From NCBI GenBank assembly GCA_012329065.1, contig JAAXPZ010000024.1:1-64000 (forward strand): 64,000 nt of DNA. The letters are read 5' to 3'. The translations under genes were made by a program, and so were the position numbers. This DNA is from Sulfurovum sp. (GTDB lineage Bacteria > Campylobacterota > Campylobacteria > Campylobacterales > Sulfurovaceae). Below the pieces are notes generated by a model. That model had not been told where the DNA came from. It ran no database searches and saw only the letters and a program-made list of their open reading frames with translations. Positions 24,461 to 43,938 of the stretch are shown one piece after another. The number at the start of each line of letters is the position of its first letter. Position 1 is the stretch's first letter.

Positions 24461-24518
24461 GATAATCATTGTCATATTCAGCAACTCATACTTTTTTTTG
24501 ATTATCATTTTACTTCTT
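24461..24518 (+). promoter_or_regulatory. Two Fur-box-like sites before the haem/CobN operon
   Basis: GATAATCATTGTCATATTC at 24461-24479 and GATTATCATTTTACTTC from 24500 both match much of the Fur operator. They lie 20-75 bases before the start at 24537, where they would block transcription when iron is plentiful. Two sites in tandem strengthen the case. Confidence 0.65.
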
Positions 24519-24536: not shown

Positions 24537-25061
24537 ATGGTAGCAGTTTTAGAGAGTTTTATGTATGAGGTGTCAAATCTGTTTTTGGTACCAGTTCTTC
24601 TTATGATAATAGCACTTTTTGTTTATTCATTTTTTCAGATAGGTATTTTTATAATGGAATCAATCCAAAGACGAAAACATTCTTCATCCTATCAAAAGCA
24701 CTGTGAGTCCTCAAGTCCTAAAAAAATTAAAGGCTATCCAATATTTTCATATTTTGTAGCCAACCGCTTAGATGATGAGGATACTCTAGAGCTCTTTGCA
24801 TACAAAAAACTGGAAAATATCTCTATAGTCACTCGCGTAGCTCCCATGCTAGGGCTTGTGGCAACCATGATACCTATGGGACCAGCACTCAAAGCACTAT
24901 CTGATGGCAATGTGCAGGGCATCAGTGAAAACCTCATCATAGCATTTGCCGCAGTTATCTTTGCATTGATAGCCGCTTCTATTACTTACTGGATCGCCTC
25001 TAAACGAAAAGGATGGTACGCAAGTGAAATTATAGACATACTCAAGAGAAAAACAACATGA
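24537..25061 (+). CDS. MotA/TolQ/ExbB-family protein (HmuT-like position)
   Basis: 174 residues with three membrane helices: one N-terminal (about 18-38) and a pair flanking the family core TRVAPMLGLVATMIPMGPALKALSDGN. ENLIIAFAAVIFALIAASITY forms the third helix. The core matches the proton-channel region of TolQ/ExbB/MotA. In Bacteroidetes hmu operons a protein of this family lies beside DUF2149 and CobN-like HmuS genes, as here. It probably forms a proton-driven complex with the next two products. GAGGAG precedes the start; the 3' end overlaps the next gene. Confidence 0.82.
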   Translation: MVAVLESFMYEVSNLFLVPVLLMIIALFVYSFFQIGIFIMESIQRRKHSSSYQKHCESSSPKKIKGYPIFSYFVANRLDDEDTLELFAYKKLENISIVTRVAPMLGLVATMIPMGPALKALSDGNVQGISENLIIAFAAVIFALIAASITYWIASKRKGWYASEIIDILKRKTT

Positions 25062-25402
25062 AACTACTGCAAGAAGATGAATCTTTAAACCCTATTCTTT
25101 CAGCAGTGAACCTTGTCGATGTTTTTTTGGTAATCATCGCAGCTTTGCTTATCTCAATAGCTCAGAACCCTCTCAATCCATTTTCTGCTGATGATGTCAC
25201 AGTTATCAAAAACGCAGGCAAAAAAAACATGGAAGTCATCATCAAAAAAGGCAAAAAACTTACCAAATATAAATCAGATGGAAAAATAGGTGAGGGCGAG
25301 GGAGTAAAGGCAGGTGTTGCCTATAAGATGAAAGATGGAAACATGATATATGTTCCTGAAGACAAAAATACAGGAAATAGAAAAACAGGAGACAAAAAGT
25401 GA
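25058..25402 (+). CDS. DUF2149 protein (HmuU-like position)
   Basis: 114 residues. A short cytoplasmic start (EDESLNPILSAVNLVDVFLV) leads into one membrane helix. The periplasmic part contains NPLNPFSADDVTVIKNAGKKNMEVIIKKG and ends in AYKMKDGNMIYVPE, the conserved DUF2149 tail. The topology resembles ExbD, and it overlaps by four bases with both neighbours. It is proposed to couple the ExbB-like motor to the CobN-like protein. Family call is firm from pattern; function is inferred from gene order. Confidence 0.78.
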   Translation: MKLLQEDESLNPILSAVNLVDVFLVIIAALLISIAQNPLNPFSADDVTVIKNAGKKNMEVIIKKGKKLTKYKSDGKIGEGEGVKAGVAYKMKDGNMIYVPEDKNTGNRKTGDKK

Positions 25403-28400
25403 TAAAAAAACTACTTTTAATCATTGCAATGCTACCTATGTCTATACATGCAAGTACTCAAAAAGACATACTTATTATAAGTACAAGCATGGGTATCGTA
25501 TCGCAAAGTGCAAAAATGTCAGCATTTAAAAGAGCTGCTGAGAAAGAAGGTTTAAGTGTAGTCGTTAAATTTGAGAGAGAGATTGATGTAGAGAAGTTTA
25601 TAGAGCAGATCAACAGCTATAAGATAGTAATGTTTGATTCTTTAGCAGGAGCTAGAACTCTTGGTTCATTGCTTGGAAAGTTTGACCAAGCGGTACAAAA
25701 TGTCAATGAAAACATAGCTATCATCCCGCTACCGCTCAAAGATGAAAGTCCGTACAGAAAAAATATAACTATAGAGCAAAATATTGAGCTATATAAGTAT
25801 TGGGAAAATGGTGGAAGAACAAACTTTTCAAATATGGTAAAATATTTGAAGGTGCATATCTTAAAAATATCCAAAGAAAATATAGCTGAGGCAATAATAT
25901 TACCAAAAAATGGAGTATATCATCCAAAAAACCCTGATATTGCTTTTGCTAGTCTAAGTGAATATACCAAATCATTTGGTATAGATCTTCAAAATACTAA
26001 AAAGCCAGTTGTTGGGGTAAAGTTCCACAGAAGCTCGCTTGTTAGCGGTGCCATAGGTCACATAGATGCTATGATCGAGTATCTTGAAAGTAAAGGTGCA
26101 TATACTATACCATTTTACACAGACATAAGTGGAGGAGATCCCGTAGGAGTAAAATTTCTCATAGAAAACAATCAAACAGTAGCAGATGTAGTCGTCAATT
26201 TTCAAATCATGGTGATAGACCATGAGAGCCAAAGGGCTGCTTTAAAACAACTAAACATACCTACTTTGCATGCACTCAGTTATTCAAAAGGTAGCCAAAA
26301 AGAGTGGGAAGCAGATCCTTATGGTATAGATTTCCCTATGATTCCAATGTATTATATTATCCCTGAAACACTCGGATTTATTGACCCGCTAATAGTCGCT
26401 GTGCAGGATTATAAAACAAAAGAGATGATTCCTATAAAGGCACAGCTTGAGTCTTTGGCCAATAAAGCAATAAATATTTCAAAGCTAAAAAAGATAGATA
26501 ACTCCAAAAAGAAAATAGCCATCATGTACTACAACTACCCCGCTGGCGTTGACAACATGGGCGCTAGTTTTTTAAATACACCTGAGAGCTTGGAGTTGAT
26601 TCTAAAAGAGTTTAAAGCACAGGGCTATACAACACAAGAGCAGAACAATACCTACCTACGAAAAAAAGCCACAGCTGGACTCAAGGTGATGTATAGTGTA
26701 AATCTATACAAAGAGGCAAAAAAAATATTGGAAAACGATAGTGCAGCTCTGTTTCCTTATGATGAGTACATAAAAGAGTTTTACAAGCTTCCTGTAGATA
26801 CTAGAACAGATATGATTAGATTTTGGGGCTATCCACTTCAGTCAAAGATGTTGATTTTCAACAAAGAGGATCAAAAGTGGTACTTTCTAGTACCTAGAAT
26901 AGAGATAGGAAACATCGCCATCATGCCACAGCCTCGTCGAGCAGAGAGAGAAGATAGTATATGGGAGATGAATAAAGATATAAATAGAGATGATTCATCA
27001 TTGTGGCACAATCCAAAGGTATCTATAAGTCACTCGTATCTAGCCAGCTATCTGTGGGCTAGGAAGCAGTTTGCTGCCAATGCTTTGGTGCATCTAGGCA
27101 CTCACGGAACACAAGAATGGAGTCCTGGCAAAGAAAGAGGACTTAGAGTTGGAGATGATGCACTCTCAGTGCTTGGTGATGTGCCTGTTGTCTATCCATA
27201 TATCACCAACAACCTAGCTGAAGGGATACAAGCTAAAAGAAGAGGAAGAGCCACACTAATATCTCATCAGACTCCACCATTTGGATTGACGGGAACATAT
27301 AAAGAGCTTAGCGAAATCATGGATTTTATAAATCAATACAAAAGTGTAGATGATGGGATGCTCAAGACAGAGCTCAAAAAACAGATTAGCGAAGTAGTGG
27401 TCAAGATGAATATCAATAAAGATATAGAATTTACTCCAGAAATGATGGAGAATGATTTTGACAATATGCTGTCAAAAGTAGAAGACTATATACTGGGAAC
27501 CTCAAAGCAAGCTATGCCCTTGGGTATGCATACATTTGGTACATATCCAAAAGAAGAGCACCTCATCTCAACTGTCATGCAGATGGTGGGCTCTGAGTTT
27601 ATAACCAAAGTAGAGGGTGACGAAAAGTATTTTGCTAAAAACTACAAGGAGTTCAATAGTTCCAAAACCTACAGACTCATCAAGGATTATGTCATAGATG
27701 AAAAGTCCATGAAAGACATTGACGATGGAGAGATAAAAGCTTATCTGAGAGTTGCAGTTGACTATAAATACAGATTTATAAAAACCAAAGAGATAAAGAA
27801 TTTCATTAGGGCACTAGATGGGGAATTTATAGAGACTGGCATAGGAGGAGATAGTATCAGAAACCCAGACTCACTAGCAACAGGAAGTAATATGTACGGA
27901 TTTGATCCTTCCAAAGTGCCTACAAAAGCAGCCTACAAGACAGGCAGTAAGCTCATAAAAGATTTTATAGAAAATCATTATGCAGAAAATAAAAAATACC
28001 CTAGAAAGCTGACTTTTAACCTCTGGTCGCTTGAGACGATGCGTCACTATGGGGTGCTGGAGAGTCAGATACTATATGCCATGGGAGTGCGGCCTATATG
28101 GAATGAAACTGGTATCTCAAACAGAATGATACAGGGCATGGCGAAGCAACAGCTTGAGAGCTTTTTGCCAAGCGGCATGGCAAAGTGGATATCAGAGCTC
28201 GTAACTATACAGAGAATACAGTTTCTCCTAGACCTTACGCCAGATGATTGGCTAGTCAAGGCTAAAAAGATGATCAAACACGCTTATGCTGTAAGTAAAG
28301 GTCAGATAGAAGATATAGAGATTATCCCATATAGCGAGCTCAAAAGACCGAGAGTTGATGTGGTGATATCTGCTACAGGACTATATAGGGATACTTTTCC

Positions 28401-29583
28401 TCAAGTGATGCAGTTGATTGCAAAAGCTGTAGAAAAGGTAGCGGCATTAAAAGAAGATGGGAATTATCTGAGAGAAAATGCTCTATCTTTGGAGAAAATG
28501 CTTGCCAAAAGAAAAGATATAAATGAAAGTGAAGCCAAGTACCTCTCGACAATCAGAATATTTTCAAATAAAACTGGAGATTATGGTAGCGGAGTGGATG
28601 AGATAGATGATACAGGTAGGTGGGACGATGACAAGAGAATCTCACAAAATTATGTTCAAAAGCTAGGGCATTATTTCGGAAGTGATACGAGTAGATGGAG
28701 TGAAAAGAGAGTAGATCTTGACCTCTATTCAAAGAACCTAAGTGGCACAGAGGGGATCATATTTTCAAGAACCTCCAATCTCTATGGGCTACTCACAAGT
28801 GATGACCCATTTGAATACTTCGGCTCCATCGCAATGGCTGTTAGAAATGTAGATGGCAAAGCCCCTAAAACCTATATAGCAAACCTAAGAGATCCAAATG
28901 ATGCAAAAATAGAATCAACAGCCAAGTTTCTAAGTAAGGAGCTTAGGGGTAGATATTTCCACCCCAAATGGATAGAAGAAGCCATGGCAGAGGGCTATAG
29001 TGGCGCAACACTTATACAAGATGTGATGGCAAATTTCTGGGGCTGGCAGGTAGTAGATCCAAATGTCATAAGAGATGACCAGTGGCAGGAGTTTGTAGAG
29101 ATATATGTTAATGACAAGTATGATATGCAGATACAAGAGTGGTTTAAGTCACTCAATCCAGATGCCTATGCAAGAATCATACAGAAGATGCTTGAGGCGA
29201 ACAGAAAAGGCTACTTCAAGACAGATGAAGATACGCTCAAAAAGCTTGTAGAGCTATACAAAGAGCTTGAGACCAAATATACAATATCTAAAAACTATAA
29301 TGAAAAGTTCAAGAAGTTTGTCAATGACAAAGCAGTAGGCTTTGGACTCATGACACCATCAGGCAAGATGATAAACCAAACTATGCCAAAAGCCTCATCA
29401 AAAGCCAAATCAGAGCAAAAACAGAAGAAAGCAGATGCCCCAGCAAAAGTCAAAGGCCAAGAGCTAAAAAAAGTAGAAAAAAGTAAAACCGAAATTAGAT
29501 ATCAAGAGTATCTAGTCTTGAGCTTTTTACTGCTGATTATGGTTGGCGGCATGCTGTATCAATCCAGAAGAAAGGAGTACTGA
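25399..29583 (+). CDS. Periplasmic membrane-anchored CobN-like chelatase, HmuS type (paralogue 1)
   Basis: 1394 residues. It starts with a signal peptide (about 1-19) and ends in one membrane helix followed by RRKEY, so the large domain should be periplasmic. CobN/BchH family motifs: HLGTHGTQEWSPGKERGL (His565, His569), PPFGLTGTYKEL, GGDSIRNPDSLATG, LETMRHYGVLESQILYAMGV, RPRVDVVISATGLYRD and RYFHPKWIEEAM. True CobN works in the cytoplasm with CobS/CobT, which are absent here. The combination with ExbB-like, DUF2149 and a TonB receptor matches HmuS, reported to remove iron from haem. A Lys-rich stretch precedes the anchor. About 70 extra residues (near 900-970) are missing in paralogue 2. Substrate could also be a cobalt or nickel tetrapyrrole. 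Confidence 0.85.
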   Translation: MIKKLLLIIAMLPMSIHASTQKDILIISTSMGIVSQSAKMSAFKRAAEKEGLSVVVKFEREIDVEKFIEQINSYKIVMFDSLAGARTLGSLLGKFDQAVQNVNENIAIIPLPLKDESPYRKNITIEQNIELYKYWENGGRTNFSNMVKYLKVHILKISKENIAEAIILPKNGVYHPKNPDIAFASLSEYTKSFGIDLQNTKKPVVGVKFHRSSLVSGAIGHIDAMIEYLESKGAYTIPFYTDISGGDPVGVKFLIENNQTVADVVVNFQIMVIDHESQRAALKQLNIPTLHALSYSKGSQKEWEADPYGIDFPMIPMYYIIPETLGFIDPLIVAVQDYKTKEMIPIKAQLESLANKAINISKLKKIDNSKKKIAIMYYNYPAGVDNMGASFLNTPESLELILKEFKAQGYTTQEQNNTYLRKKATAGLKVMYSVNLYKEAKKILENDSAALFPYDEYIKEFYKLPVDTRTDMIRFWGYPLQSKMLIFNKEDQKWYFLVPRIEIGNIAIMPQPRRAEREDSIWEMNKDINRDDSSLWHNPKVSISHSYLASYLWARKQFAANALVHLGTHGTQEWSPGKERGLRVGDDALSVLGDVPVVYPYITNNLAEGIQAKRRGRATLISHQTPPFGLTGTYKELSEIMDFINQYKSVDDGMLKTELKKQISEVVVKMNINKDIEFTPEMMENDFDNMLSKVEDYILGTSKQAMPLGMHTFGTYPKEEHLISTVMQMVGSEFITKVEGDEKYFAKNYKEFNSSKTYRLIKDYVIDEKSMKDIDDGEIKAYLRVAVDYKYRFIKTKEIKNFIRALDGEFIETGIGGDSIRNPDSLATGSNMYGFDPSKVPTKAAYKTGSKLIKDFIENHYAENKKYPRKLTFNLWSLETMRHYGVLESQILYAMGVRPIWNETGISNRMIQGMAKQQLESFLPSGMAKWISELVTIQRIQFLLDLTPDDWLVKAKKMIKHAYAVSKGQIEDIEIIPYSELKRPRVDVVISATGLYRDTFPQVMQLIAKAVEKVAALKEDGNYLRENALSLEKMLAKRKDINESEAKYLSTIRIFSNKTGDYGSGVDEIDDTGRWDDDKRISQNYVQKLGHYFGSDTSRWSEKRVDLDLYSKNLSGTEGIIFSRTSNLYGLLTSDDPFEYFGSIAMAVRNVDGKAPKTYIANLRDPNDAKIESTAKFLSKELRGRYFHPKWIEEAMAEGYSGATLIQDVMANFWGWQVVDPNVIRDDQWQEFVEIYVNDKYDMQIQEWFKSLNPDAYARIIQKMLEANRKGYFKTDEDTLKKLVELYKELETKYTISKNYNEKFKKFVNDKAVGFGLMTPSGKMINQTMPKASSKAKSEQKQKKADAPAKVKGQELKKVEKSKTEIRYQEYLVLSFLLLIMVGGMLYQSRRKEY

Positions 29584-29584
29584 T

Positions 29585-29881
29585 ATGAAGAAAATTATTT
29601 TAGCAATATTTATTTCTAGTGGACTTTTTGCCCATACACCACTGCTCACTTGTATAGACGAAGGTGACGGAACTATCACTTGTGAGGGCGGCTTTAGTGA
29701 TGGATCGAGTGCAGGTGGAGTTAAATTTAGAGTAGAGCAGAAAGACAAGGTGATTCTTGAGGTCAAGCTTGATAGCAATAGTGAAGTAAACTTCAAAAAA
29801 CCACAAGGGTCTTACAGGGCTATCTTTGACGCAGGTGCTGAGCATATCGTAGTAGTCAAAAGCAAAGATATATTTGAATAA
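29585..29881 (+). CDS. Small exported protein in the CobN-like operon
   Basis: 98 residues from ATG 29585, with AAAGGAG upstream and one base after the previous stop. Signal peptide about 1-16 (ending LFA), mature protein starting HTPLLTCIDEGDGTITCEGGFSDGSS. Two cysteines and the N-terminal His could bind metal or form a disulfide. The remainder is beta-rich and acidic. Small proteins with this pattern accompany DUF4198 and CobN-like genes in other iron or nickel uptake loci, as I recall. Probably a periplasmic accessory or metal-binding protein; no named family is claimed. Confidence 0.65.
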   Translation: MKKIILAIFISSGLFAHTPLLTCIDEGDGTITCEGGFSDGSSAGGVKFRVEQKDKVILEVKLDSNSEVNFKKPQGSYRAIFDAGAEHIVVVKSKDIFE

Positions 29882-29895
29882 TACAAAGGGAGAGT

Positions 29896-30780
29896 ATGAG
29901 AAATTTTAAGAAACTAACAAGCAAGATTGCCTTGAGCATGCTGGCTTTGGCTATAGCTGCAAGTGCCAACCATTTTCAGTTGATGTACACGCCTGAGACT
30001 ACTCTGCAAAGCGGTAGAACGGTAAAGATGATTCATGCAATGATACATCCCTATACTGATAGGAAAATTATGGATATGGGTAAACAGCACAAGGGTGACA
30101 AGGACTTCTTGGAGCCCGAAGAGTTTTTTGTAGTCCATAAAGGTATCAAAACAGATCTGATGGAGACACTTGAACCGATCTTGTTTCAAGGTAAAAAAAG
30201 AGCAGGAAAAGGATACAGATCGAAACACAAGCTCAAAAAGATGGGAGATCATCTTTTTGTACTCAAGCCTGCCCCTTACTACTCTACACTAGAGGGTATT
30301 TATCTCAAGCAGATCACCAAGCTACTGGTCAATATAGCAGGAAAACCTACTGACTGGGACAGAGAGCTTGGACTAGAGGCTGAGATCATACCCTTATCCA
30401 AGCCTTATGGCATCTGGGAGGGCTCCAGCTTCTCTGCTATGGTCAAGGCTGAGGGTATCCCAGTACCATTTGCTCAAATCGAGGTAGAGTATCTCAATAG
30501 TGAGATAGACATAGAAAACCTAAAAGTGGGTGCTTTTAAAACTATGGCAAAGAACCAAAACTTCAAAACCATAGAGTTTAAAGCCAATGAAAGGGGTGAG
30601 TTTACCTTTCACCTGCCCAAAGAGGGCTGGTGGGGTTTTAGAGCCAAACATATAGGACTCAAAAAAGACTACAAAGAAAAGGAGTTGAGCATTGAGGGAA
30701 TAATATGGGTGCAGGTTAAAAAAGTAGAGATCAATAAGACAGAAAGAGCAAAGAGTAGCGAAGATAACAACAGCCAGTAA
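29896..30780 (+). CDS. DUF4198-like periplasmic protein
   Basis: 294 residues with a signal peptide ending near AIAASA (residues 19-24), followed at once by NHFQLMYTPE. The arrangement matches DUF4198: an N-terminal His-containing strand, a middle region (DHLFVLKPAPYYSTLEGIYL) and a C-terminal Ig-like part (EIIPLSKPYGIWEGSSFSAMVKAEGIPVPFAQIEVEY, then GEFTFHLPKEGWWGFRAK). DUF4198 proteins are annotated as nickel or metal uptake related and often sit with TonB receptors. It ends the first haem/CobN operon; a Fur-like site follows before the next one. Confidence 0.75.
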   Translation: MRNFKKLTSKIALSMLALAIAASANHFQLMYTPETTLQSGRTVKMIHAMIHPYTDRKIMDMGKQHKGDKDFLEPEEFFVVHKGIKTDLMETLEPILFQGKKRAGKGYRSKHKLKKMGDHLFVLKPAPYYSTLEGIYLKQITKLLVNIAGKPTDWDRELGLEAEIIPLSKPYGIWEGSSFSAMVKAEGIPVPFAQIEVEYLNSEIDIENLKVGAFKTMAKNQNFKTIEFKANERGEFTFHLPKEGWWGFRAKHIGLKKDYKEKELSIEGIIWVQVKKVEINKTERAKSSEDNNSQ

Positions 30781-30824
30781 TTTGCTCTATGTTGGCGAGT
30801 ATTTAATAATACTCTAAGCAATAA

Positions 30825-30845
30825 TTGATAATAATTATTATACTT
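30825..30845 (+). promoter_or_regulatory. Fur-box-like palindrome before the lipoprotein/TonB-receptor operon
   Basis: GATAATAATTATTATAC at 30827-30843 is an almost perfect A+T palindrome matching the Fur operator core. It lies about 22 bases before the start at 30866. AGAAGGAG is the ribosome site. This splits the island into separately controlled operons. Confidence 0.6.
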
Positions 30846-30865
30846 AATAAATAGAAGGAGAAGAG

Positions 30866-33547
30866 ATGAGAAATTTGATGATGATGTGTCTGGCAGTAGT
30901 TGCTGGACTTTTTATACTTAGTGGTTGTGGCGGTGGTGGCAATCCCCCATCTGAAGAAAATCCAGAAAAAGTGACAGGATATCTGATAGATTCAGCTATA
31001 GCAGGGATATCATATGATTGCAATGGCAGTGAAGCTGGAGCCGTAACAGCTTCTGATGGTGCATTTGAGTGCTACAGCCCTCCAGTGACTTTTAAACTTG
31101 GCGGTATGACATTGGGGACTATACAGACACTTCCTAGTGATAGCAAAGTATATCTACAAGATTTACTAGGTGTGGATAGAAGTGCTTTTACTGATCCAAA
31201 GGTTGTTAAGCTTGCAAGACTATTGCAGTCGCTTGATGAGAATAATGATCTCTCTGATGGCATTACAATTACAGCTGAAGTAGCAGCCAATTTTACAGCT
31301 AGTGACTCTATGAATCATGATTTATCAGATCTTGTGATAAAAGGTAATCCTCAGGCTGCACTTGTAAGTGAAGAGAGTGCTATACGACATCTACAGCAGA
31401 GTTTAAACAATAATCATCCTCATCCAGGAGAAACAGAAGCAGAGGTTATAGCAAGATATCTAAAAGATATACAGGCTACCAATAGAGATCTTAATACAAG
31501 TGATCCAGTGATAAGTACTGCTCTTGCTGAATTAGCAAAATGCTTATATAGAAAAGATAAGACACTACTACAAGCAGACATTATCGCTACTTTTGGTTCA
31601 CATGTCAGAGAGGAAGATCTGAATTCAACCAACTATTCTACTGTTGAAGGGTGTGATACTGTGACTATCAGAAAAGTAGGTGGAACATTTACTGACTCTC
31701 AAAAAGTACTTTACTATACCATCAATAACCCAGTTACAGGAAATGAACAGCTTCTAGCATACGACTATGACAACAAAAAGTCTCAGGTAGTCAATACTGA
31801 TGTAATCTTAGGTCATAAAGTATTTTTGTTTGAGGGTGAAAAAGATGGGGGCAAGGAGAAATTTACAGGTAAAAAGTTTGGTGTCTATCTAGATCCAAAT
31901 CAAAATTTTAAAGATCGAACACATACGGTAAATTCTAGATATGGATCCTATGATATCAACTATAGGTTTTATATGGATAATGCATTGATGAAGTTTGATG
32001 TTAAAAATCCTTCTAGGGTAAGTTATGTCTTTAGGTCAAATCAAATCCCTGCTGAGCTAAAAAACAGTGGTGTGTCAAAAGTTGGAAAAGCATTTAAGAT
32101 ACTGGAAAATATCGTTGACCCAGACAACTCTTATGTAGGACTCAAGGTTCTAGACTCTCTAGCAGATGATATTAGAGGAGAGACTGAGGACAACAAAACT
32201 CAAGCAGGACTTACAGTTAGAGTAGGAGACTCCAAGGCAGTAGCTGGTACGCCTATAGCGATTATAAAAGATACTGATTTCAAGAGTGATGGGCTACTTG
32301 TCCTATATGCACCTCCATATATACCAGAACAATCCAATGGAACATATACACTTAAAAAGTACAATGCATCACTCACGACGAGTACTACTATAGCGAACGG
32401 AAAGTACTATTTTGCTACAGAAAATGATACTCATATATATCTCTTCAAAGAGGGAAGCGATAAGATCTATGCATTTGGTAAATCAGCTGATACTCTCACT
32501 GAAGTAGCAGGTGTAACTCTAGCTGGTGCTTATAGCAGAGATGTACATGCCAAAGGCTCTAGTCACGGATCATCTACAAGACTCATAGATGGAGGTACAA
32601 CGCTGTCTGGCAGAAGACCTCATCTAGGTAGCGGTGATGATGCTTATGTCTCATTCCATTATGACCTGCATGCCAATATAGGAAGTGCTTTTATCTTTGG
32701 TTCATTTGGAGCATACAAAAGTGCTCAAGTCTTTAAGCTCACGGGAACTACAGGAATAAAGATTATGGACAATGGTGACGCAGTCGATCACAGTAGTGCT
32801 CCTACAACTGAGCCTATAAGTGGGCATATCAATCTCATAGCTGTCAGTGGAAATAAACTTCTATCAGAAATAGGCTGGTTTGATGGTAATGCTACACTAG
32901 GTGGCACTTGCAGGAGAGGTTACCCTATGCCATTTTCTATGAACGGTAAAGCGTGCGTCCATGTGAAGTATGGCTATGTTGAGACAAATACAACTAGCTC
33001 TGCGGATGATATAACTGTACTTGAATTTGATGACAATAACGCCAGTACAGATGACAGTATGGTGACAAAAAATCTTCCATACTATGTAGCTAGAAGAATC
33101 GGTCCAGTTGCAGTAGGCGATAAGCTTTATATATCACTATTTAAGGGCGGTTCTAGGAGAAATGGATATGTTCATCAGCAGTATCAATTTCAACTTTCAG
33201 ATATGTCAAAGGTGAAAACAGTAGTGGGCAGAACATACTTCACTAAGACACATCAGGCAAATAATGGTATTTATGATGGGACAGTGATAGCATTTTCACA
33301 AACACAACAGACTATATTTAATGTAGATGACAATACCGAGTTGGCTGATGTTTCAGACATAAACGGCAAGCCAGGATTTTCTATCTCCGCACTTACTAGT
33401 GGAGCACCACTCTCTGGAGTAGGTAGTCTCTCTATGCTGAAAAACAACATAGGAAATCATGCTTTTGAGATGTTTGTAGTTGATACAGAAAATGGTGGAT
33501 TTGAATATATAGACTTTGCTCCTTTTGGTGGCTGGATATATGAATAG
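30866..33547 (+). CDS. Large lipoprotein upstream of the TonB receptor, candidate surface haem or protein binder
   Basis: 893 residues with a lipoprotein signal ending LSGC (Cys21) and a GGGG linker. Residues about 35-85 form an Ig-like domain (GYLIDSAIAGISYDC...GAFECYSPPVTFKLGGMTLG) common at the start of marine surface lipoproteins. A helical region follows to about 250. From about 265 to the end the protein is beta-rich with repeated short blades, suggesting a propeller. Its 3' end overlaps the TonB receptor start by eight bases, so the two are co-translated. HmuY-like haem-binding lipoproteins hold this position in Bacteroidetes, but no sequence similarity to HmuY is seen. No functional family recognised. 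Confidence 0.7.
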   Translation: MRNLMMMCLAVVAGLFILSGCGGGGNPPSEENPEKVTGYLIDSAIAGISYDCNGSEAGAVTASDGAFECYSPPVTFKLGGMTLGTIQTLPSDSKVYLQDLLGVDRSAFTDPKVVKLARLLQSLDENNDLSDGITITAEVAANFTASDSMNHDLSDLVIKGNPQAALVSEESAIRHLQQSLNNNHPHPGETEAEVIARYLKDIQATNRDLNTSDPVISTALAELAKCLYRKDKTLLQADIIATFGSHVREEDLNSTNYSTVEGCDTVTIRKVGGTFTDSQKVLYYTINNPVTGNEQLLAYDYDNKKSQVVNTDVILGHKVFLFEGEKDGGKEKFTGKKFGVYLDPNQNFKDRTHTVNSRYGSYDINYRFYMDNALMKFDVKNPSRVSYVFRSNQIPAELKNSGVSKVGKAFKILENIVDPDNSYVGLKVLDSLADDIRGETEDNKTQAGLTVRVGDSKAVAGTPIAIIKDTDFKSDGLLVLYAPPYIPEQSNGTYTLKKYNASLTTSTTIANGKYYFATENDTHIYLFKEGSDKIYAFGKSADTLTEVAGVTLAGAYSRDVHAKGSSHGSSTRLIDGGTTLSGRRPHLGSGDDAYVSFHYDLHANIGSAFIFGSFGAYKSAQVFKLTGTTGIKIMDNGDAVDHSSAPTTEPISGHINLIAVSGNKLLSEIGWFDGNATLGGTCRRGYPMPFSMNGKACVHVKYGYVETNTTSSADDITVLEFDDNNASTDDSMVTKNLPYYVARRIGPVAVGDKLYISLFKGGSRRNGYVHQQYQFQLSDMSKVKTVVGRTYFTKTHQANNGIYDGTVIAFSQTQQTIFNVDDNTELADVSDINGKPGFSISALTSGAPLSGVGSLSMLKNNIGNHAFEMFVVDTENGGFEYIDFAPFGGWIYE

Positions 33548-35633: not shown

Positions 35634-35645
35634 AAAGTTCAATCA

Positions 35646-38600
35646 ATGAATAATCTAATAGTAAAGATCGTTTTTTTACTATCTATGATATTTGGCTTTT
35701 TGGAGGCTAATCCAAATAAAATACTCATCATATCAGCAGACACTCATAAATCTTCTCAAAGTGCAAAATTTGCATTTACCAAAAAGCAGGCCAAGGATAT
35801 TGGCTTAGAGTTTGACTATAAGTTTAGCAACCAGATAAAGGGGAGAAAAGAGTTGCTTTCGCAATATGATATGGTCATATTCGATTCGCTTAGAGTCAAA
35901 AATATCAAAAGAAGTGTAGAAGCTTTTAAAGACAGCATAAAAGCACTTGATAATATAATTTTGCCTATGGCAAAAGAAGAAAATCCCTATATGCAAAATA
36001 TAACTTCCGCACAACGAGATATACTCTATGACTACTGGCGTAATGGAGGAGTTTCAAATATACAAAATATGCTAAAGTATATCAAGCATAAAGTCCTTAG
36101 CAATGATACTATAGAGATAGAGAAGCCAAAGGTACTTCCTCTAAGTGGTATCTATCATCCTCGACACAAAGATTTGGTTTTTGCTTCACATAAGGAGTAT
36201 TTTGATTTTCTTGATGTTGATTTTGAGAGCAACAAAAAGCCTATAATAGCTATATATTTTGGTAGAAACTCAATAGTATCCAATATACTTGCACCTATCA
36301 ATGATGCTATAAAACGCATAGAGGCAAAGGGAGCTATTGCTTTGCCGTTTTTCTTCAAAACAAAGAGCAAACAAGATGCTATAGGATTGGAGTTTTTGCA
36401 AGATAACGGGCAGAGGATGGCAGATGTACTACTCTACTTTTTCAGTTCTATTCATAGTGGCATTGACAAGATAGACAATTTCAAGACATTAAATATACCC
36501 ATATTGCATGCATTAACCTATAGATGGGGAGATCAGAAGAAGTGGGAGAGAGATAAAATAGGTATGCCGTTTGGCAGTATTGCAAGTAGCTTTGTGATGG
36601 CTGAGAGTCTCGGCTTTACCGATAGCATGGTGGTGGCTACGCAGGACAATATTGATAAAGAGTTTCATCCTATCCCTTATCAGATGGATTCATTTATTAG
36701 CAAAGCCTTAAAACTTGCAAGGCTTCAAAAAATAGAAAATAGAGATAAAAAAGTAGCACTGATGTATTATGCACTAGGTAGAGACAAGATTGGTGCTAGC
36801 TTTTTAAATATACCAAAGAGCTTAGAATCTATTGTGAAGAAGCTAAATATAGAGGGTTACACAGTAAGAGATATCAATGCCAGCACTATTTTAGATCAGA
36901 CACTAAAAACAATAAAAGTGCTCTATGATATTGATCTATACAGTAATGCCAAACGAATGCTCGACGAGGGGCAGGCAGACTTGTATCCATATGATAAGTA
37001 TATGCAAGAGTTCTATAATCTTCCTGTAGAGTTGCGTACAGATATGATAAGGGTTTGGGGGTATCCACTTGAGTCGAAGATGCTCGTATATAAAAAGGAT
37101 GAGAAAAGATGGTATTTTTTGATCCCAAGGATAACGCTTGGCAATGTCATCATTATGCCTCAGCCCCACCCATTAGAAAGAGAAGATAGCATAAGGGATA
37201 TGAATCTTGATATTGGCAGAGAAGATGAGAGGGACTGGCACAACCCTACAGCAGCAGTCAACCATTCGTATTTCGCAACATATCTCTATCTAAAAAATCA
37301 ATTCAAAACTGATGCCTTGGTGCATCTAGGAACCCATGGGACAGTGGAATGGAGTTTGGGCAAAGAGAGAGGCTTGAGTATTTATGACTCTGCGCTAATG
37401 TGTATAGCAGATATACCGCATTTCTATCCGTACATTGTCAACAACACAGCTGAGACAATACAGGTGCGAAGAAGAGCTAGGGGTGTTATCATATCACATC
37501 AGACACCACCTTTTGCATTGGCAGGTTCATACAACGAAGTCAATGAACTTATGGAGCTTAACGCACAGTTCAAGACTGTCACAAAAGGGCTCATGAGAGA
37601 GCAGGTTAAAAAAGAGATCATCCAAAAGAGTATAGCTTTAAATATCCATAAAGATATTGAAATGAGCCAAAAGCAGATAGAGGGTGATTTTCATCATTTT
37701 CTACATGAACTAGAGAAGTACATCAGAAGCTTCACTGCTGTTTCACAGCCTTTAGGACAACATACTTTTGGTACTATTTATAACGAAGAGCATCTCATTA
37801 CTACAATCGCACAAATGCTAGGCAAAGAGTATTTAGTCAAAACAAACGGTGAGGATTATGCCATAGCAAACTACAAAGATTTTAATAGCTCAAAGGCATA
37901 CAGACTTATCAAAAAGCACATCATAGAGAAAAAAGAGATAAACAATAGTGAGTTTATAGAGTTTATAAATCAAGGCAAAGAGCTTTACAAGCTTCTTGCC
38001 TCTCAAAAAGAGAACAAAAATCTTATCCGTGCACTAGACGGAGAACATATAGAAGCAGGAACAGGCGGAGGTCCTATTAGAAATCCCCAAAGCTTACCTA
38101 CAGGGGTCAATTTGGTCAGCTTTGATCCCACAAAAGTACCCACTCCTGCTGCATATAAAACAGGCAGGTTGCTTATGGATAGATTTATAGAGGAGCACTA
38201 TAGAGATAATGGCATCTATCCAAACAAGATTACTTTTAATCTATGGGGCTTAGAGACGGTCAGGCATCACGGAGTGCTTGAGTCACAGCTACTAGCAGCA
38301 ATAGGAGTCAAGCCGATTAGAGATAGCAAAGGAAGAATTAAAGATACCGAGATTATCCCATATAAAGAGCTAAAAAGACCTAGGATAGATGTAGTAGTCT
38401 CTGCCACAGGGCTATATAGAGACATGTATCCAAATACCATCAAACTTATAGCTGATGCTATCAACAAGATTGCTAATCTCAAGGAGAAGTATAACTATCT
38501 GAGAAAAAATAGTATATCGCTTTTTGAGAATCTTAGAAAAAACCATGATATCAATGAGAGTGAAGCAAAATATTTCTCAAGTATCAGAATCTTCTCTAGT

Positions 38601-39566
38601 AAGACAGGTAATTATGGAAGCGGAGTGGATGCTATAGAGCAGACTAGTAGATGGAGAGATGATAAAAGAATAACAAAAGACTATCTAGAGCATACTGGAT
38701 ACTATTTTGGCAATGATACAAAAAGGTGGAATGAAAAACGAATGGATATCTCTTTGTACGCCAAAAACCTCAGTGGCACCAATGCAGTTATTTTTTCCAG
38801 AAGTTCAAATCTATATGGACTGTTGACATCTGATGATCCTTATGCACATTTTGGCTCTATCGGTATGGCAATCAGAAACATAGATGGAAAAACTCCAAAG
38901 ACCTATATATCAAACCTCAGAGACCCCAATGATGCCAAGATAGAAACAACAGCAAGATTTATGAGCACAGAACTAAGAAGTAGATATTTTCATCCAAACT
39001 GGATAAGACAGATGCAAAAAGAGGAGTATGGGGGCACAGTAGAGATATCCTCTGTAGTCAATAACTTTTGGGGATGGCAGGTGGTCAATCCTGATGTAGT
39101 CAGAAGTGACCAGTGGGATGAGTTTAAAAGTATTTATGTGGATGATAAATATAAGCTAAAAATAGATGAGTGGTTCAAAAAACATAATCCGCAAGCACTG
39201 GCAGATATAGTTGAAAAAATGCTAGAAGCATACAGAAAAAATTATTGGAAAACAGGCAAAGGCAATATTGAGGATCTACTAGAGCTTTTGGATGATTTAA
39301 AAAAGAATTACAATACAATCTCATACAATACAAAACTAGATGAATTTACAGAAAAGGCAAAACAGGGCTTTGGGATAGAGAGTCTTAGAGAGGGAATGCA
39401 GGCAAGCAAGGCAAAACAAAAAGGTCAAAAACTTAAAGAAGTACAACAAAGCAAGGTAGATAAAGATTATACCTATCTGTACTTTGTCTTATTTATTTTA
39501 GCCTTGATTCTTGCTGGTATGCTTTATGAATATAGGAAAAAAAATGAGCATAACACTCGGCAATAA
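35646..39566 (+). CDS. Periplasmic membrane-anchored CobN-like chelatase, HmuS type (paralogue 2)
   Basis: 1306 residues. Signal peptide about 1-21 and a C-terminal membrane helix (YLYFVLFILALILAGMLYEY) give the same topology as paralogue 1. The same motifs occur: HLGTHGTVEWSLGKERGL (His560, His564), PPFALAGSYNEV, GGGPIRNPQSLPTG, LETVRHHGVLESQLLAAIGV, RPRIDVVVSATGLYRD and RYFHPNWIRQM. It lacks the roughly 70-residue insertion of paralogue 1, joining IGVKPIR almost directly to TEIIPYKELKRP. It lies 12 bases after the TonB receptor, so it probably serves that receptor. No CobS/CobT genes are nearby. Whether the two paralogues share a substrate is unknown. Confidence 0.85.
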   Translation: MNNLIVKIVFLLSMIFGFLEANPNKILIISADTHKSSQSAKFAFTKKQAKDIGLEFDYKFSNQIKGRKELLSQYDMVIFDSLRVKNIKRSVEAFKDSIKALDNIILPMAKEENPYMQNITSAQRDILYDYWRNGGVSNIQNMLKYIKHKVLSNDTIEIEKPKVLPLSGIYHPRHKDLVFASHKEYFDFLDVDFESNKKPIIAIYFGRNSIVSNILAPINDAIKRIEAKGAIALPFFFKTKSKQDAIGLEFLQDNGQRMADVLLYFFSSIHSGIDKIDNFKTLNIPILHALTYRWGDQKKWERDKIGMPFGSIASSFVMAESLGFTDSMVVATQDNIDKEFHPIPYQMDSFISKALKLARLQKIENRDKKVALMYYALGRDKIGASFLNIPKSLESIVKKLNIEGYTVRDINASTILDQTLKTIKVLYDIDLYSNAKRMLDEGQADLYPYDKYMQEFYNLPVELRTDMIRVWGYPLESKMLVYKKDEKRWYFLIPRITLGNVIIMPQPHPLEREDSIRDMNLDIGREDERDWHNPTAAVNHSYFATYLYLKNQFKTDALVHLGTHGTVEWSLGKERGLSIYDSALMCIADIPHFYPYIVNNTAETIQVRRRARGVIISHQTPPFALAGSYNEVNELMELNAQFKTVTKGLMREQVKKEIIQKSIALNIHKDIEMSQKQIEGDFHHFLHELEKYIRSFTAVSQPLGQHTFGTIYNEEHLITTIAQMLGKEYLVKTNGEDYAIANYKDFNSSKAYRLIKKHIIEKKEINNSEFIEFINQGKELYKLLASQKENKNLIRALDGEHIEAGTGGGPIRNPQSLPTGVNLVSFDPTKVPTPAAYKTGRLLMDRFIEEHYRDNGIYPNKITFNLWGLETVRHHGVLESQLLAAIGVKPIRDSKGRIKDTEIIPYKELKRPRIDVVVSATGLYRDMYPNTIKLIADAINKIANLKEKYNYLRKNSISLFENLRKNHDINESEAKYFSSIRIFSSKTGNYGSGVDAIEQTSRWRDDKRITKDYLEHTGYYFGNDTKRWNEKRMDISLYAKNLSGTNAVIFSRSSNLYGLLTSDDPYAHFGSIGMAIRNIDGKTPKTYISNLRDPNDAKIETTARFMSTELRSRYFHPNWIRQMQKEEYGGTVEISSVVNNFWGWQVVNPDVVRSDQWDEFKSIYVDDKYKLKIDEWFKKHNPQALADIVEKMLEAYRKNYWKTGKGNIEDLLELLDDLKKNYNTISYNTKLDEFTEKAKQGFGIESLREGMQASKAKQKGQKLKEVQQSKVDKDYTYLYFVLFILALILAGMLYEYRKKNEHNTRQ

Positions 39567-39840
39567 ATGGCTAATGAGCATAAGAGTATTGACCGCAGTC
39601 ATTATAGGATATGGACTTACCGTGCTTTATACCGTAGCTATATCAAAAACACTTATGATTCTAGGTCTGACCAAAGTGAACGCAACTGTAAGCATGCAAC
39701 TTCTATCTTTTTTAATTTATTCTATAGTGGTTATGTGGGTATTTTCTGTTGCTTCTCTTAGAAAGCTTTGGCTTCATATCACCTACTCTATGATTATATC
39801 TCTAGTCTTGATATATCTAATAAATATGGGACTACAGTAG
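39544..39840 (+). CDS. Small membrane protein of the DUF3649/iron-uptake type
   Basis: 98 residues from ATG 39544, overlapping the end of the CobN-like gene by 23 bases. Three predicted membrane helices (about 10-30, 42-65, 73-95) with few charges. Genes of this size in front of a PepSY protein and a DUF3325-like protein are common in TonB-receptor iron loci, where the first is DUF3649. The match here is based on length, topology and order, so the family name is tentative. Confidence 0.6.
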   Translation: MSITLGNKWLMSIRVLTAVIIGYGLTVLYTVAISKTLMILGLTKVNATVSMQLLSFLIYSIVVMWVFSVASLRKLWLHITYSMIISLVLIYLINMGLQ

Positions 39841-41393
39841 TGAAAGATACATTTACTAAATCTATGAGTTGGCTACATACTTGGGCATCATTGTTGCTTG
39901 GTTGGCTTCTGTTTTTTATTTTTCTTACTGGCACGCTGGGTTATTTTCAAAAAGAGATTACACAATGGATGAAGCCTGAGTTGCCCATAAGCGTAAATAA
40001 ATTTACACAGCAGGAGTTGGTTCAGATTGCTATGAATCACCTAAAAAAAGAAGCTCCAAGTTCAAAAAAGTGGCTCATAAAATTACCAAATAGCAGAGAA
40101 AATATCTTGTCTGTAACATGGAGCCATGTAAGAAAAGACAAGGCTACTGCAATGGGAGGGCATGGTGGAGGCAGAGGAAAAAGAACAACTCATATCATAA
40201 ATCCTCACACAAAAGAGATAGTAAAGCCAAGACGGACAGGTGGGGGAGGATTGCTTTATCGTATGCACTATAGGCTGCACTATGTGAATGCACGAACAGT
40301 AGGTAGGTATATCGTAGGAATCGCTTCTATGCTAATGCTTATCGGACTTATTACTGGCATTATTATACATCTTCGCAAGATACTCAAAGATTTTTTCACA
40401 TTCAGGCAAGATAGAAATCTTCACTCGTGGCTTGATGGGCATATATTTACAAGTGTACTGGCACTGCCTTTTCATCTGATGATTACCTATAGTGGCTTGG
40501 CATTTTTTGTTTTTACCTATATGCCTCTGACTGCTTTGGCAAATTATGATGGAGACATGAGAAACTATATACAGGAAGCTTTCCCTAGAGAAAAAGCTAT
40601 TAAAATTCAAGGTATCAAAGAGCCACTAGCTTCGATAGAGCAAATGAGAAAAAATGCAGAAGCATACTTCGGCTCACCTATAAAATCTATTAGCATTATC
40701 AATCAAGGCGACAGTAGTGCAATCGTGAACTTCACTAGAGAAAACAGTACTCTTTTTAGTTCAGAAAAAGCGGACAAGGTTTATTTTTCTGGCATCGACG
40801 GAAAGATGATAGAAAATCAAAGCCCAAACAGACCAAAAGCAACACGAGCAAGAGATATACTGACTGGCTTGCATCGTGGTGATTTTGCAAATATTTATGC
40901 TAGATGGCTATATTTTTTATCTGGTGTTCTAGGTACCTTTATGATAGCTACAGGGCTAGTCATCTGGACAAAAAAAAGAGAAGCAAAACAAAAAGATACT
41001 CTCGGATTTAAGCTAGTGGATAATCTCAATATGGTTACTATTGCTGGATTACCAATCGCTGTCGCTGTATATTTTTGGGCAAATAGACTCATTCCTATTG
41101 ATGTACCAAAACGAGCCATGCAAGAAGCTGACGCAATGTTTATCGCATGGCTAGCAGTATCTGTATTTGTATTTTCTGTGAATTCAAGAAAAATGTGGGT
41201 TGTACTATTTTATCTTTCTGCTACTCTTTATGCATTATTGCCCATATCCAACTTTTTCTTGACTGGTCGTCATTTGGCTATCACTATAGCACAGGGAGAC
41301 TGGACATTAGTCTGGATGGATTTGATGCTATTTTTTACTGGTCTTGCTTTTTGGTACACAGGCCATAAAGTACAAAAAAAGATTTCATCATGA
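39840..41393 (+). CDS. PepSY-associated transmembrane protein, probable periplasmic iron/chelate reductase
   Basis: 517 residues starting with GTG 39840, which overlaps the previous stop (TAGTG). The family start is visible as SMSWLHTWASLLLGWLLFFIFLTGTLGYFQKEI. Later HYRLHYV, RDRNLHSWLDGHIFTSVLALPFHLMITYSGLAFF and LTGLHRGDFANIYARWLYFLSG segments carry conserved His residues that could hold haem groups. It ends in three further helices. PepSY-TM proteins such as FoxB/FpvG-like proteins reduce ferric chelates in the periplasm. In this operon it may reduce iron or haem for the CobN-like proteins. A Gly/His-rich loop (GGHGGGRGKRTTH) is unusual. Confidence 0.82.
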   Translation: MKDTFTKSMSWLHTWASLLLGWLLFFIFLTGTLGYFQKEITQWMKPELPISVNKFTQQELVQIAMNHLKKEAPSSKKWLIKLPNSRENILSVTWSHVRKDKATAMGGHGGGRGKRTTHIINPHTKEIVKPRRTGGGGLLYRMHYRLHYVNARTVGRYIVGIASMLMLIGLITGIIIHLRKILKDFFTFRQDRNLHSWLDGHIFTSVLALPFHLMITYSGLAFFVFTYMPLTALANYDGDMRNYIQEAFPREKAIKIQGIKEPLASIEQMRKNAEAYFGSPIKSISIINQGDSSAIVNFTRENSTLFSSEKADKVYFSGIDGKMIENQSPNRPKATRARDILTGLHRGDFANIYARWLYFLSGVLGTFMIATGLVIWTKKREAKQKDTLGFKLVDNLNMVTIAGLPIAVAVYFWANRLIPIDVPKRAMQEADAMFIAWLAVSVFVFSVNSRKMWVVLFYLSATLYALLPISNFFLTGRHLAITIAQGDWTLVWMDLMLFFTGLAFWYTGHKVQKKISS

Positions 41394-41671
41394 GTATTTT
41401 TATATCTGGTATTATTTTACTTGGATTGTTCTTTTTGTCACTAATATTATCTTATCCATACAAGAGATTATTTGGTGTTAAACCGAGTGGCAAGTACACA
41501 GTATACTTGCATCTACTTGGGTGGGGCATGCTTGTTGTTGGTATGATTTTATCTATCAAAACATACGGTGTCGGGATAGGTATCACATACTGGTTTGGAT
41601 ATATAACACTTATGGCTTTTTTACTAGTCATAGGATTGAGTTACAAAACAAAAAAGGAAAAAAAATGTTAA
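41390..41671 (+). CDS. DUF3325-like small membrane protein
   Basis: 93 residues, three membrane helices, overlapping the PepSY gene by ATGA. The pattern of a first helix, then YPYKRLFGVKPSGKYTVYLHLLGWGML, matches small DUF3325 proteins that follow PepSY genes in iron-uptake clusters. Probably a structural partner of the PepSY protein. Family match by pattern and position. Confidence 0.6.
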   Translation: MSIFISGIILLGLFFLSLILSYPYKRLFGVKPSGKYTVYLHLLGWGMLVVGMILSIKTYGVGIGITYWFGYITLMAFLLVIGLSYKTKKEKKC

Positions 41672-42552
41672 AATATATAAAGATTATCTCTATAGTAGCT
41701 ATTGTACTGATATTGTCTGCTTGTTCTACAAAGAAGCTGGTGACCGTGCCTCAACAAAGTGGAATTTACTCTGTGAAGCAGGATAGGATTATTACTGTAA
41801 AAGAGCTGACAAAAGAGGTTGAAAAGTATTCAGTGATTTTTGTAGGTGATCACCACAATACAAAGCCAACACACAAGTTTTTCAATAAATTTTTGAAATC
41901 TTTGGCGAAGAAAGGATACAGAATACATCTGGCAAACGAGTGGTTTACTCCTGAACACAATAGGGTATTGAAGCTATATACTGATGGTAAAATAAGCTCA
42001 AATACTCTGAAACACAAGAGAAAGTGGAGTAAGTTTACTTCTATGGACTGGAACCTTGTCTCTGCGTTATATAGAACTGTCAGAGAATCTGGCGGCAGGT
42101 TATATGGTGTAAATCTCTCAAAAAAGAAAAGAAGCAAAATCTCACTCAGACAGATTGATAAAATGAATAAAGAAGAAAGAGCATTTTATGAGCGCCTTGA
42201 CTTAGGTGTCAAAGCCCATAGAAACTTAGTTATGCCCTTTTTTAAGCATTGCCATATGATGCCAAAAAAGAGCAATGAGCCTTGCGAGGAGAGGATGTAT
42301 AGAGTGCAGGTATCATGGGACACATATATGGCAGAGCAGAGTGCCAAAATAGCCCAAAAGGCACTTAAGAGCAAAAAAGATAAATTGATCATCTTTGCAG
42401 GTGCTATGCATGTAGAACAAGGGCTTGGCATACCTCTTAGGTTTTCAAGATTGAACAACCTACCGTCTTATATAATAACAAATCATAGAAACAGTAAAAA
42501 GCCTGTAGATAGTAAAAAAGCAGATGCATTATTTATATATAATTCCAAATAG
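41665..42552 (+). CDS. ChaN-family haem-binding lipoprotein
   Basis: 295 residues from ATG 41665, overlapping the previous gene by seven bases, with AAGGAAA upstream. Lipobox LSAC (Cys20). ChaN/Tiki-type motifs are VIFVGDHHNTKPTHKFF, LANEWFTPEHN and LIIFAGAMHVEQGLGIP, where His and Glu residues cluster as in ChaN. Campylobacter jejuni ChaN was shown to bind haem and lies beside a TonB receptor and ExbB-ExbD-TonB. The same gene neighbourhood is seen here. Last gene of this operon; a Fur-like pair follows. Confidence 0.82.
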   Translation: MLKYIKIISIVAIVLILSACSTKKLVTVPQQSGIYSVKQDRIITVKELTKEVEKYSVIFVGDHHNTKPTHKFFNKFLKSLAKKGYRIHLANEWFTPEHNRVLKLYTDGKISSNTLKHKRKWSKFTSMDWNLVSALYRTVRESGGRLYGVNLSKKKRSKISLRQIDKMNKEERAFYERLDLGVKAHRNLVMPFFKHCHMMPKKSNEPCEERMYRVQVSWDTYMAEQSAKIAQKALKSKKDKLIIFAGAMHVEQGLGIPLRFSRLNNLPSYIITNHRNSKKPVDSKKADALFIYNSK

Positions 42553-42560
42553 ATTGAGGA

Positions 42561-42609
42561 GGTAATGATAATATAACTTTAGATACAATACATTATCATT
42601 ATCATTTAA
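42561..42609 (+). promoter_or_regulatory. Two Fur-box-like sites before tonB-exbB-exbD
   Basis: GGTAATGATAATATAAC from 42561 and CATTATCATTATCATTTA at 42591-42608 both resemble the Fur operator. They cover the 84-base gap before the TonB start at 42637. The second contains three TATCAT-type half-sites in a row. Confidence 0.65.
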
Positions 42610-42636
42610 AATATAAACAAAAGAGCTTCTATAGAC

Positions 42637-43404: not shown

Positions 43405-43416
43405 AGGAGTAGATAG

Positions 43417-43938
43417 ATGATAGATATAACACAAATAGATATAATGCAATATGTAGATAGAGGTGGTGTCATAGTCACTGTATTGATAGGGCTCAATATC
43501 CTAGGATTTACGATAATGTTATGGAAATTGATGGTTCTGTTTTGGGCTAGATATAAAAAAGAGAAGATGATAAAGAGAGCATTGGAGTTTATACATAAAA
43601 ACAACCAAGACTATAGTAGAAAATCACTTCAGAATGCTATCAACCATCAAGCTAAAAAACTTGAGTTTGGACTAGGTACTATCAAAATCATAGCCTCTAT
43701 AGCACCTCTTCTAGGGCTTCTTGGTACTGTGGTTGGGGTATTGGCTGCTTTTGATGCTATAGGCAAACACGGCTTGGGCGATCCATCTGTATTCTCAGCT
43801 GGCATATCTGTAGCACTCATCACTACAGTTGCAGGTCTTATAGTTGCCATTCCTCACTATATCGGCTATAACTACTTCATAGGGCTACTAGACTCTATAG
43901 AGCTTAAACTGGAAAAAGCAGTATTGGAAAAACTATGA
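43417..43938 (+). CDS. exbB: ExbB proton-channel protein
   Basis: 173 residues, three membrane helices. Family core LGTIKIIASIAPLLGLLGTVVGVLAAFDAIG and SAGISVALITTVAGLIVAIPHY are present, with the conserved Pro and Thr residues of the ExbB/TolQ pore. It lies 12 bases after tonB with AGGAG upstream and overlaps exbD by four bases. Works with ExbD to energise TonB. It is distinct from the more divergent ExbB-like gene at 24537. Confidence 0.92.
   Translation: MIDITQIDIMQYVDRGGVIVTVLIGLNILGFTIMLWKLMVLFWARYKKEKMIKRALEFIHKNNQDYSRKSLQNAINHQAKKLEFGLGTIKIIASIAPLLGLLGTVVGVLAAFDAIGKHGLGDPSVFSAGISVALITTVAGLIVAIPHYIGYNYFIGLLDSIELKLEKAVLEKL

Follow-up and report, generated by a model that had tools for sequence, protein, structure and literature searches.

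HmuS has been described as mainly a Bacteroidota protein and as diagnostic of haem use and, to our knowledge, it is the sole member of the group of anchored CobN-like proteins with a demonstrated reaction. Like other members of this group, HmuS of B. theta (9d26) and BtuS1/BtuS2 of B. fragilis combine the CobN fold with a signal peptide and a C-terminal anchor. Their hmuYRSTUV-type operons encode a TonB receptor, an ExbB-like protein (HmuU) and a DUF2149 protein (HmuV), which was earlier named an ExbD homologue (PMC10100974). The defining features of HmuS are Met79, His254, His538, His1209 and a Met-rich insert (Nath et al. 2025, PMC12583661); His538 is essential for turnover, and Ser1014 is predicted to hold a propionate (PMC12583661). 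The purified protein turns over haem with NADH, and HmuUV is not needed for this (PMC12583661). B. fragilis has two CobN-like copies, and a double mutant of both homologues still produced protoporphyrin (PMC6460266).

A second described system is the PA1922-PA1925 operon of Pseudomonas aeruginosa, which has the four-gene module TonB receptor-CobN-ExbB-DUF2149 and is Zur-regulated (PMC4542158, PMC13083405, PMC10393844). The operon carries a Zur site, and PA1923 is 122-fold up in a znuA mutant (PMC4542158).

A 15-gene operon in Sulfurovum

The window analysed here, 64,000 nucleotides of a contig from Sulfurovum sp., contains 15 genes at 24537-44333, all on the + strand and with intergenic gaps of at most about 90 bp, which probably form an iron-regulated operon of about 20 kb. 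The Fur-box-like operator GATAATCATTGTCATATTC (24461-24479, + strand) lies 76 bp before the first gene, and a second half-match to the Fur box, GATTATCATTTTACTTC, starts at 24500. The operon opens with an ExbB/TolQ-like proton-channel protein (24537-25061; PF01618, E 9e-7, 29 bits) and a DUF2149 protein, the putative ExbD/HmuV-like stator partner (25058-25402; PF09919, E 3.5e-29, 101 bits), followed by p1, a periplasmic, membrane-anchored CobN/HmuS-like protein of 1394 aa (25399-29583; PF02514, 964 bits). The second CobN/HmuS-like protein, p2, has 1306 aa and is 50% identical to p1 (35646-39566; PF02514, 924 bits). Between the two lie genes for a NikL-like small secreted protein (29588-29881; NF058648, E 1.7e-7, 31 bits against a cut-off of 100), a DUF4198 (NikK-like) periplasmic protein (29896-30780; PF10670, 141 bits), an 893-aa lipoprotein with the signal motif LSGC (30866-33547) and a TonB-dependent receptor (33537-35633). 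After p2 come a small hydrophobic membrane protein with no family match above cut-off (39535-39840), a PepSY-TM protein (39843-41393; PF03929, 209 bits), a DUF3325 membrane protein (41390-41671; PF11804, E 2.3e-14), a ChaN-like haem-binding lipoprotein (41668-42552; PF04187, E 1.1e-31, 111 bits), TonB (42637-43404; PF03544, E 1.3e-19), ExbB/TolQ (43417-43938; PF01618, E 1.7e-29) and ExbD (43935-44333; PF02472, E 4.5e-29).

Family searches confirmed every gene that a sequence-only reading of this DNA had named, namely the CobN pair and the ExbB-like, DUF2149, DUF4198, TonB receptor, PepSY and ChaN genes. The NikL-like protein, the 893-aa lipoprotein and the TonB-ExbB-ExbD set (42637-44333), which extends the operon past ChaN, had been overlooked.

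NikL-like and DUF4198 proteins have relatives in nickel/cobalt transport. The NikL-like protein of the window has a His at its N-terminus after the predicted signal peptide, and its gene is kept beside the p1-type gene at L013, L014, L088/L146 and L138, with DUF4198 at the same loci. PepSY-TM relatives are found in siderophore and haem uptake operons, and a ChaN homologue also occurs near the L138 operon. For the receptor, the best NCBIfam model is TIGR01786, the haemoglobin/transferrin/lactoferrin receptor family; its 133 bits, like the 138 of Bacteroides HmuR, are far under the cut-off of 324. Pfam and PDB searches gave no match for the 893-aa lipoprotein. Its one homologue, of 742 aa (L016, 8278-10506), likewise lies directly 5' of a haemoglobin/transferrin-type TonB receptor, and it is possible that the lipoprotein is the surface partner of the receptor in a two-part system.

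Beside the operon, on the - strand (44337-55150), are an RND permease, two heavy-metal P1B-type ATPases and a Fur-family regulator (54695-55150). An empty-site test for an island gave no readable insertion site, the adjoining RND gene having no high-identity counterpart in the family (best full-length match 39%). On the other side, two large subtilisin-like secreted proteins (16401-20678 and 20743-23610) have cadherin-like tandem repeats and similar C-terminal tails (GGGCTYNPNN...).

Relationship to HmuS and CobN

The signal peptide and C-terminal anchor proposed earlier for both CobN-like proteins were borne out, the anchor being a hydrophobic helix followed by a basic tail. The maximal 19-residue hydropathy of the tail is 1.78 in p1 and 2.22 in p2, whereas six cytoplasmic CobN/BchH controls do not exceed 0.58. 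PF02514 is rare in the class, exceeding its cut-off in only 10 of 397 genomes, so the CobN-like calls are no chance annotation. Among these ten, one other genome (Sulfurospirillum BB15, G348, locus L014) also has two copies.

The sequence-only reading took the locus for a Campylobacterota version of HmuS. Its claim of kinship is supported by sequence comparison: of all PDB sequences, HmuS 9d26 matches p1 and p2 best (377 and 396 bits), ahead of ChlH (357 and 334) and CobN (299 and 273). The operon context, with ExbB-like, DUF2149 and TonB receptor genes as in Bacteroidota hmu operons, also agrees, as does the Fur-like box. The version claim as such is only partly upheld, since most of the HmuS signature residues are absent and the nearest clade is proteobacterial, with a zinc-type (Zur-box) branch among its members. 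The receptor, CobN-like, ExbB-like and DUF2149 components of the hmu set are present in the operon, but no HmuY- or HmuT-like gene was found in the window, so that the six-gene hmu operon is incomplete there.

The active-site His538 of HmuS is kept, with HLGTHG in p1 and p2 for the HmuS motif HFG(T/A)HG. The R.SN motif around HmuS Ser1199 is also shared; 69 of the 74 anchored proteins have it, as against none of six CobN/BchH controls. The axial haem ligands Met79 and His254 (HGR, head/neck site) are absent, these places being taken by FDSLAG/FDSLRV and VNFQIM/LYFFSS in p1/p2. At the HmuS site LSLDHxxEFMGG (His1209, Glu1212), p1 has LTSDDPFEYFGS and p2 has LTSDDPYAHFGS; both replace the His by Asp and so carry the Asp pair (SDD) typical of CobN, while Glu1212 is retained in p1 and is Ala in p2. 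The Met-rich insertion (domain IV) is missing too: the segment has 101 aa with three Met in p1 and 97 aa with one Met in p2, compared with 270 aa and 32 Met in a Prevotella HmuS. Further differences from the hmu systems are the NikL-like, DUF4198, PepSY, ChaN and TonB-ExbB-ExbD genes, a 63-aa insert in p1 and a ferrochelatase of the organism's own.

CobN (7c6o) and BchH/ChlH (4zhj) share with p1 and p2 the active-site His and, in the predicted models, the fold (Z 37-48 and 33-47, respectively); CobN also has the Asp pair. The AlphaFold models, predicted from alignments that left out the rows from the plasmid collection, have a pLDDT of 88 for p1 (residues 130-1320) and 90 for p2 (residues 25-1215). 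The p1 model, which is without the head domain, matches CobN at Z 37.4 and HmuS at 33.9-34.0; for p2 the values are 47.5 and 40.7-40.9. Such predicted matches to CobN, HmuS and ChlH at Z 33-48 do not favour HmuS and cannot choose the family.

Relatives were collected by a scan of species genomes, which gave 79 loci, mainly from Gamma- and Betaproteobacteria besides Campylobacterota. A locus-based genome search added BchH and a longer HxGRHST type, and plasmids supplied true CobN, BchH, and Bacteroides and Prevotella HmuS with complete hmu operons. The resulting tree of 80 proteins, made by a quick method that leaves its deep branches provisional, separates BchH, CobN, HmuS, the HxGRHST group, a Geobacter-type pair and a module clade of 64 proteins, with SH-aLRT values of 99 for the split from CobN and 100 for the module clade. 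Both p1 and p2 fall within the Campylobacterota part of the module clade. The phylogeny with HmuS, CobN and BchH that had been proposed as a check thus places them away from true CobN and BchH, and by sequence they form part of a clade of periplasmic CobN-like proteins, apart from HmuS, that is large, little studied and mainly proteobacterial.

Within this collection, near-identical CobN-like proteins in Marinobacterium weihaiense, M. iners and Allopseudospirillum japonicum (L030, L032, L037) suggest recent transfer. Two CobN-like genes are interrupted by a stop or frameshift: the second copy of Nitrosomonas europaea (L142, 7069-10456) and the copy of Sulfurimonas BM502 (L015, 9950-14068).

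Proposed removal of iron from haem-like tetrapyrroles

The reading that we prefer, at a probability of roughly 0.57, is that the operon serves hmu-like iron scavenging, with p1 stripping haem-like tetrapyrroles of their iron in the periplasm. Gene content, phylogeny, residues, promoter box and co-occurrence are observed, and the substrate, the direction of the reaction, its energy source and the role of p2 are deductions. The TonB receptor, the lipoprotein and the TonB-ExbB-ExbD set would import haem, or an iron tetrapyrrole resembling it, as far as the periplasm. Anchored in the inner membrane, p1 would bind this tetrapyrrole in its CobN-type cleft and pull the metal out, using His569 (the equivalent of HmuS His538) and the Asp pair that replaces HmuS His1209. 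The freed Fe2+ would enter the cytoplasm by FeoB. The ATPase partners CobST and ChlID cannot work in the periplasm, and the ExbB-like/DUF2149 pair would take their place as a dedicated proton motor for the CobN-like protein. The derived copy p2, with the His kept and the insert lost, would act on another tetrapyrrole or have an assisting role.

The ChaN and PepSY genes favour iron and haem. The genome encodes FeoB and ferrochelatase, and a search of it for DUF2470 (HugZ-type) proteins found none, so haem taken up by the cell would be used for its iron. Several observations count against haem: the missing Met79, His254, His1209 and Met-rich insert, the higher fold scores with CobN than with HmuS, a receptor below the haem-family cut-offs, the NikL-like and DUF4198 neighbours with their nickel/cobalt relatives, and the protoporphyrin still made by the B. 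fragilis double mutant. Against iron counts the nature of the Fur box, which is a consensus match with four mismatches in 19, in a group where 20 of 38 operons have none.

The ExbB-like/DUF2149 pair

Residues T110, P113 and L107 of the ExbB-like protein are conserved at 99-100% in 105 relatives, and hhalign aligns the protein to ExbB at 95.8%. In DUF2149, the transmembrane Asp21 is invariant in 91 relatives and falls in register with the Asp of the ExbD transmembrane segment (hhalign 92.7%; TonB and ExbB controls 8.2% and 0.2%).

In the published B. theta model (PMC12583661, PMC10100974), the role proposed for HmuU/HmuV is to energise TonB for the receptor. Were this the only role of the pair here, the CobN-like protein would work without a motor, as does purified HmuS, whose turnover of haem with NADH in the absence of HmuUV speaks against a required motor. 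This alternative is a serious contender, falling somewhat short of even odds. It has to account for the near-perfect coupling of the pair to CobN rather than to receptors: of 63 CobN-like genes in the module, HmuS and Geobacter-type groups, 62 have both partners no more than 2.6 kb away, against none of five cytoplasmic ones, and PF02514 and PF09919 exceed their cut-offs in the identical 10 of 397 genomes of the class. It also meets a separate, complete TonB-ExbB-ExbD set in the same operons, namely in the window and at about eight other loci. Lastly, components of the pair occur in archaea that have no outer membrane. DUF2149 is present in one such archaeon, Methanosarcina acetivorans (a search control, seen there without reference to the position of CobN), and HmuS- and HmuV-type proteins have been reported in Methanomicrobia (PMC10100974). 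From this coupling, the separate TonB-ExbB-ExbD sets and the archaeal DUF2149, we conclude tentatively that it is the CobN-like protein that the pair serves.

p2 as a derived copy

An insert of 63 aa lies in p1 at residues ~902-964, in the loop before the PRVDVV strand. Inserts of 59-63 aa are found in p1 and in every single-copy Campylobacterota protein of the branch, 12 in all, and in none of the other rows; p2, its partner in L014 and all proteobacterial relatives lack it. In a careful tree of a subset, built on well-filled columns, p2 and the second copy of L014 are sisters nested among the insert-bearing proteins (100/100), and monophyly of the insert-bearing proteins is rejected (AU p 6e-7). 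Because the p2 pair nests inside the insert-bearing group, p2 would most simply have lost the insert after duplication. The duplication suspected earlier is thus corroborated, with p2 as a derived paralogue of p1-like proteins.

At ten positions, p2 departs from a residue that all p1-like proteins and at least 85% of the proteobacterial DD proteins (defined below) have in common; Ser877 (HmuS Ser1014) and Asp818 of GGDxIRNP (p1 numbering) are among them. Highly conserved columns number 182; the p2 pair breaks 11 and 15 of them, where other members have a median of two. The ten altered positions fit a changed ligand or an assisting role, and p2 most likely has one of the two; duplication for different metals or tetrapyrroles, as first suggested, is possible.

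A further alternative is that p2 is no enzyme, and instead a haem-binding or regulatory partner of p1. The broken columns and the altered Ser1014 and GGD sites speak for it, but the active-site His and the Asp pair are intact, and the second copy has been retained in two families at 66% identity, which leaves this idea with an appreciable, though clearly minority, chance.

Promoter boxes and metal branches

Upstream regions were scored against Fur and Zur consensus sequences, each with 300 first-order Markov resamples of the same stretch and a threshold of p<=0.05. Up to two start points were scored per operon, relatives are non-independent, and the split described here was noticed before it was tested, so the p values are guides. 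The motif that takes the place of HmuS His1209 divides the operons into DD (the window branch and relatives), STDH and DTDH types.

Upstream of the first gene of the window, the best Fur match is 15/19 (four mismatches, p=0.010) and the best Zur match 10/17 (p=1.0); upstream of the receptor, Zur reaches 12/17 (p=0.26). The Fur-like box points to iron, in line with the iron link drawn at the outset. Among DD-type operons, 18 of 38 have a Fur box and one of 38 a Zur box. In the STDH type, Zur boxes precede six of seven operons (p 0.003-0.043) and Fur boxes none of seven, and in the DTDH type the counts are 2/15 for Fur and 0/15 for Zur. Fur boxes are thus found in 18/38 DD operons against 2/22 of the other branches (Fisher p 0.002), and Zur boxes separate STDH from the rest (Fisher p 1e-6). 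The Pseudomonadaceae loci were fetched after the Fur/Zur split had been noticed, and the same split followed there.

One Pseudomonadaceae genome (G440:C3) has two different DD-type modules 24 kb apart (L177 and L178), one with a Fur box. The DTDH modules (L029, L030, L032, L037, L046, L050, L051, L069, L084, L085 and others, from Nitrosomonas, Marinobacterium, Acidovorax and Methylococcales) are as a group without Fur or Zur boxes. The His or Asp at the 1209 site does not act as a simple metal code, His being present in HmuS (iron) and in the Zur-box branch (zinc), and Asp in the Fur-box group.

A cobalamin riboswitch lies upstream in six of seven loci of the HxGRHST type (L128-L134; G359:C4, G370:C1, G416:C36, G421:C113, G408:C34, G405:C163, G417:C10), and this group is a more distant, B12-linked sister of the module. 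Its long CobN-like genes have an ExbB gene nearby, and the two Campylobacterota genomes add a divergent DUF2149. The operons with Zur boxes and riboswitches do not fit the view, put forward in the literature, by which HmuV-type proteins serve no other ligands (PMC10100974).

These comparisons bear on two other substrates. Handling of nickel or cobalt tetrapyrroles (cobamides, F430-like) would account for the NikL-like and DUF4198 genes and for the CobN-typical Asp pair of p1 and p2, and a related Trichlorobacter plasmid locus adjoins cobamide genes. It is improbable: most relatives lack the NikL-like and DUF4198 genes, CobT is absent, and no cobalamin riboswitch was found in the window or its genome, in contrast to the HxGRHST loci. 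In 24 genomes with riboswitches at other sites, the module genes, about 28 in number, likewise all lack one just upstream.

Scavenging of zinc (or cobalt) by the same module, as in P. aeruginosa, draws on the induction of PA1923 in the znuA mutant and on the Zur boxes of the STDH branch, in the same clade. PA1922-PA1925 probably falls in that branch, as assigned from Pseudomonadaceae genomes rather than from the PAO1 sequence. The window belongs to the other branch, with DD where STDH has DH, its box is Fur-like and not Zur-like, and a Zur match is almost absent from DD-type operons, so zinc is a very unlikely substrate here.

A cobaltochelatase (CobNST) is rejected on the membrane anchor and periplasmic location of p1 and p2, their position outside the CobN and BchH/ChlH clades, the lack of a riboswitch and the absence of CobT, which the sequence-only reading had not seen beside these genes either and of which a profile search (CobT_C, PF11775) found no trace in the whole 1.94-Mb genome.

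Wider meaning

The three-gene core of CobN-like, ExbB-like and DUF2149 genes is wide in Proteobacteria and patchy in Campylobacterota, and promoter boxes divide it into iron-, zinc- and B12-linked branches. A broader proposal, which we advance tentatively and consider rather doubtful, would unite the anchored CobN-like proteins in a single large class of periplasmic demetallases. They would draw on the proton motive force by way of an ExbB-like/DUF2149 motor of their own, in place of the AAA+ ATPase of CobNST and ChlHDI. The class would have iron, zinc and cobalamin-related branches, and the pair in the window would be a duplicated case of the iron branch in which the second copy has moved to another tetrapyrrole. 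The split into branches would help to explain the unsolved zinc-starvation operon PA1922-1925 and would correct many "cobaltochelatase CobN" annotations. It also becomes testable whether a proton motor can power the removal of metal from tetrapyrroles.
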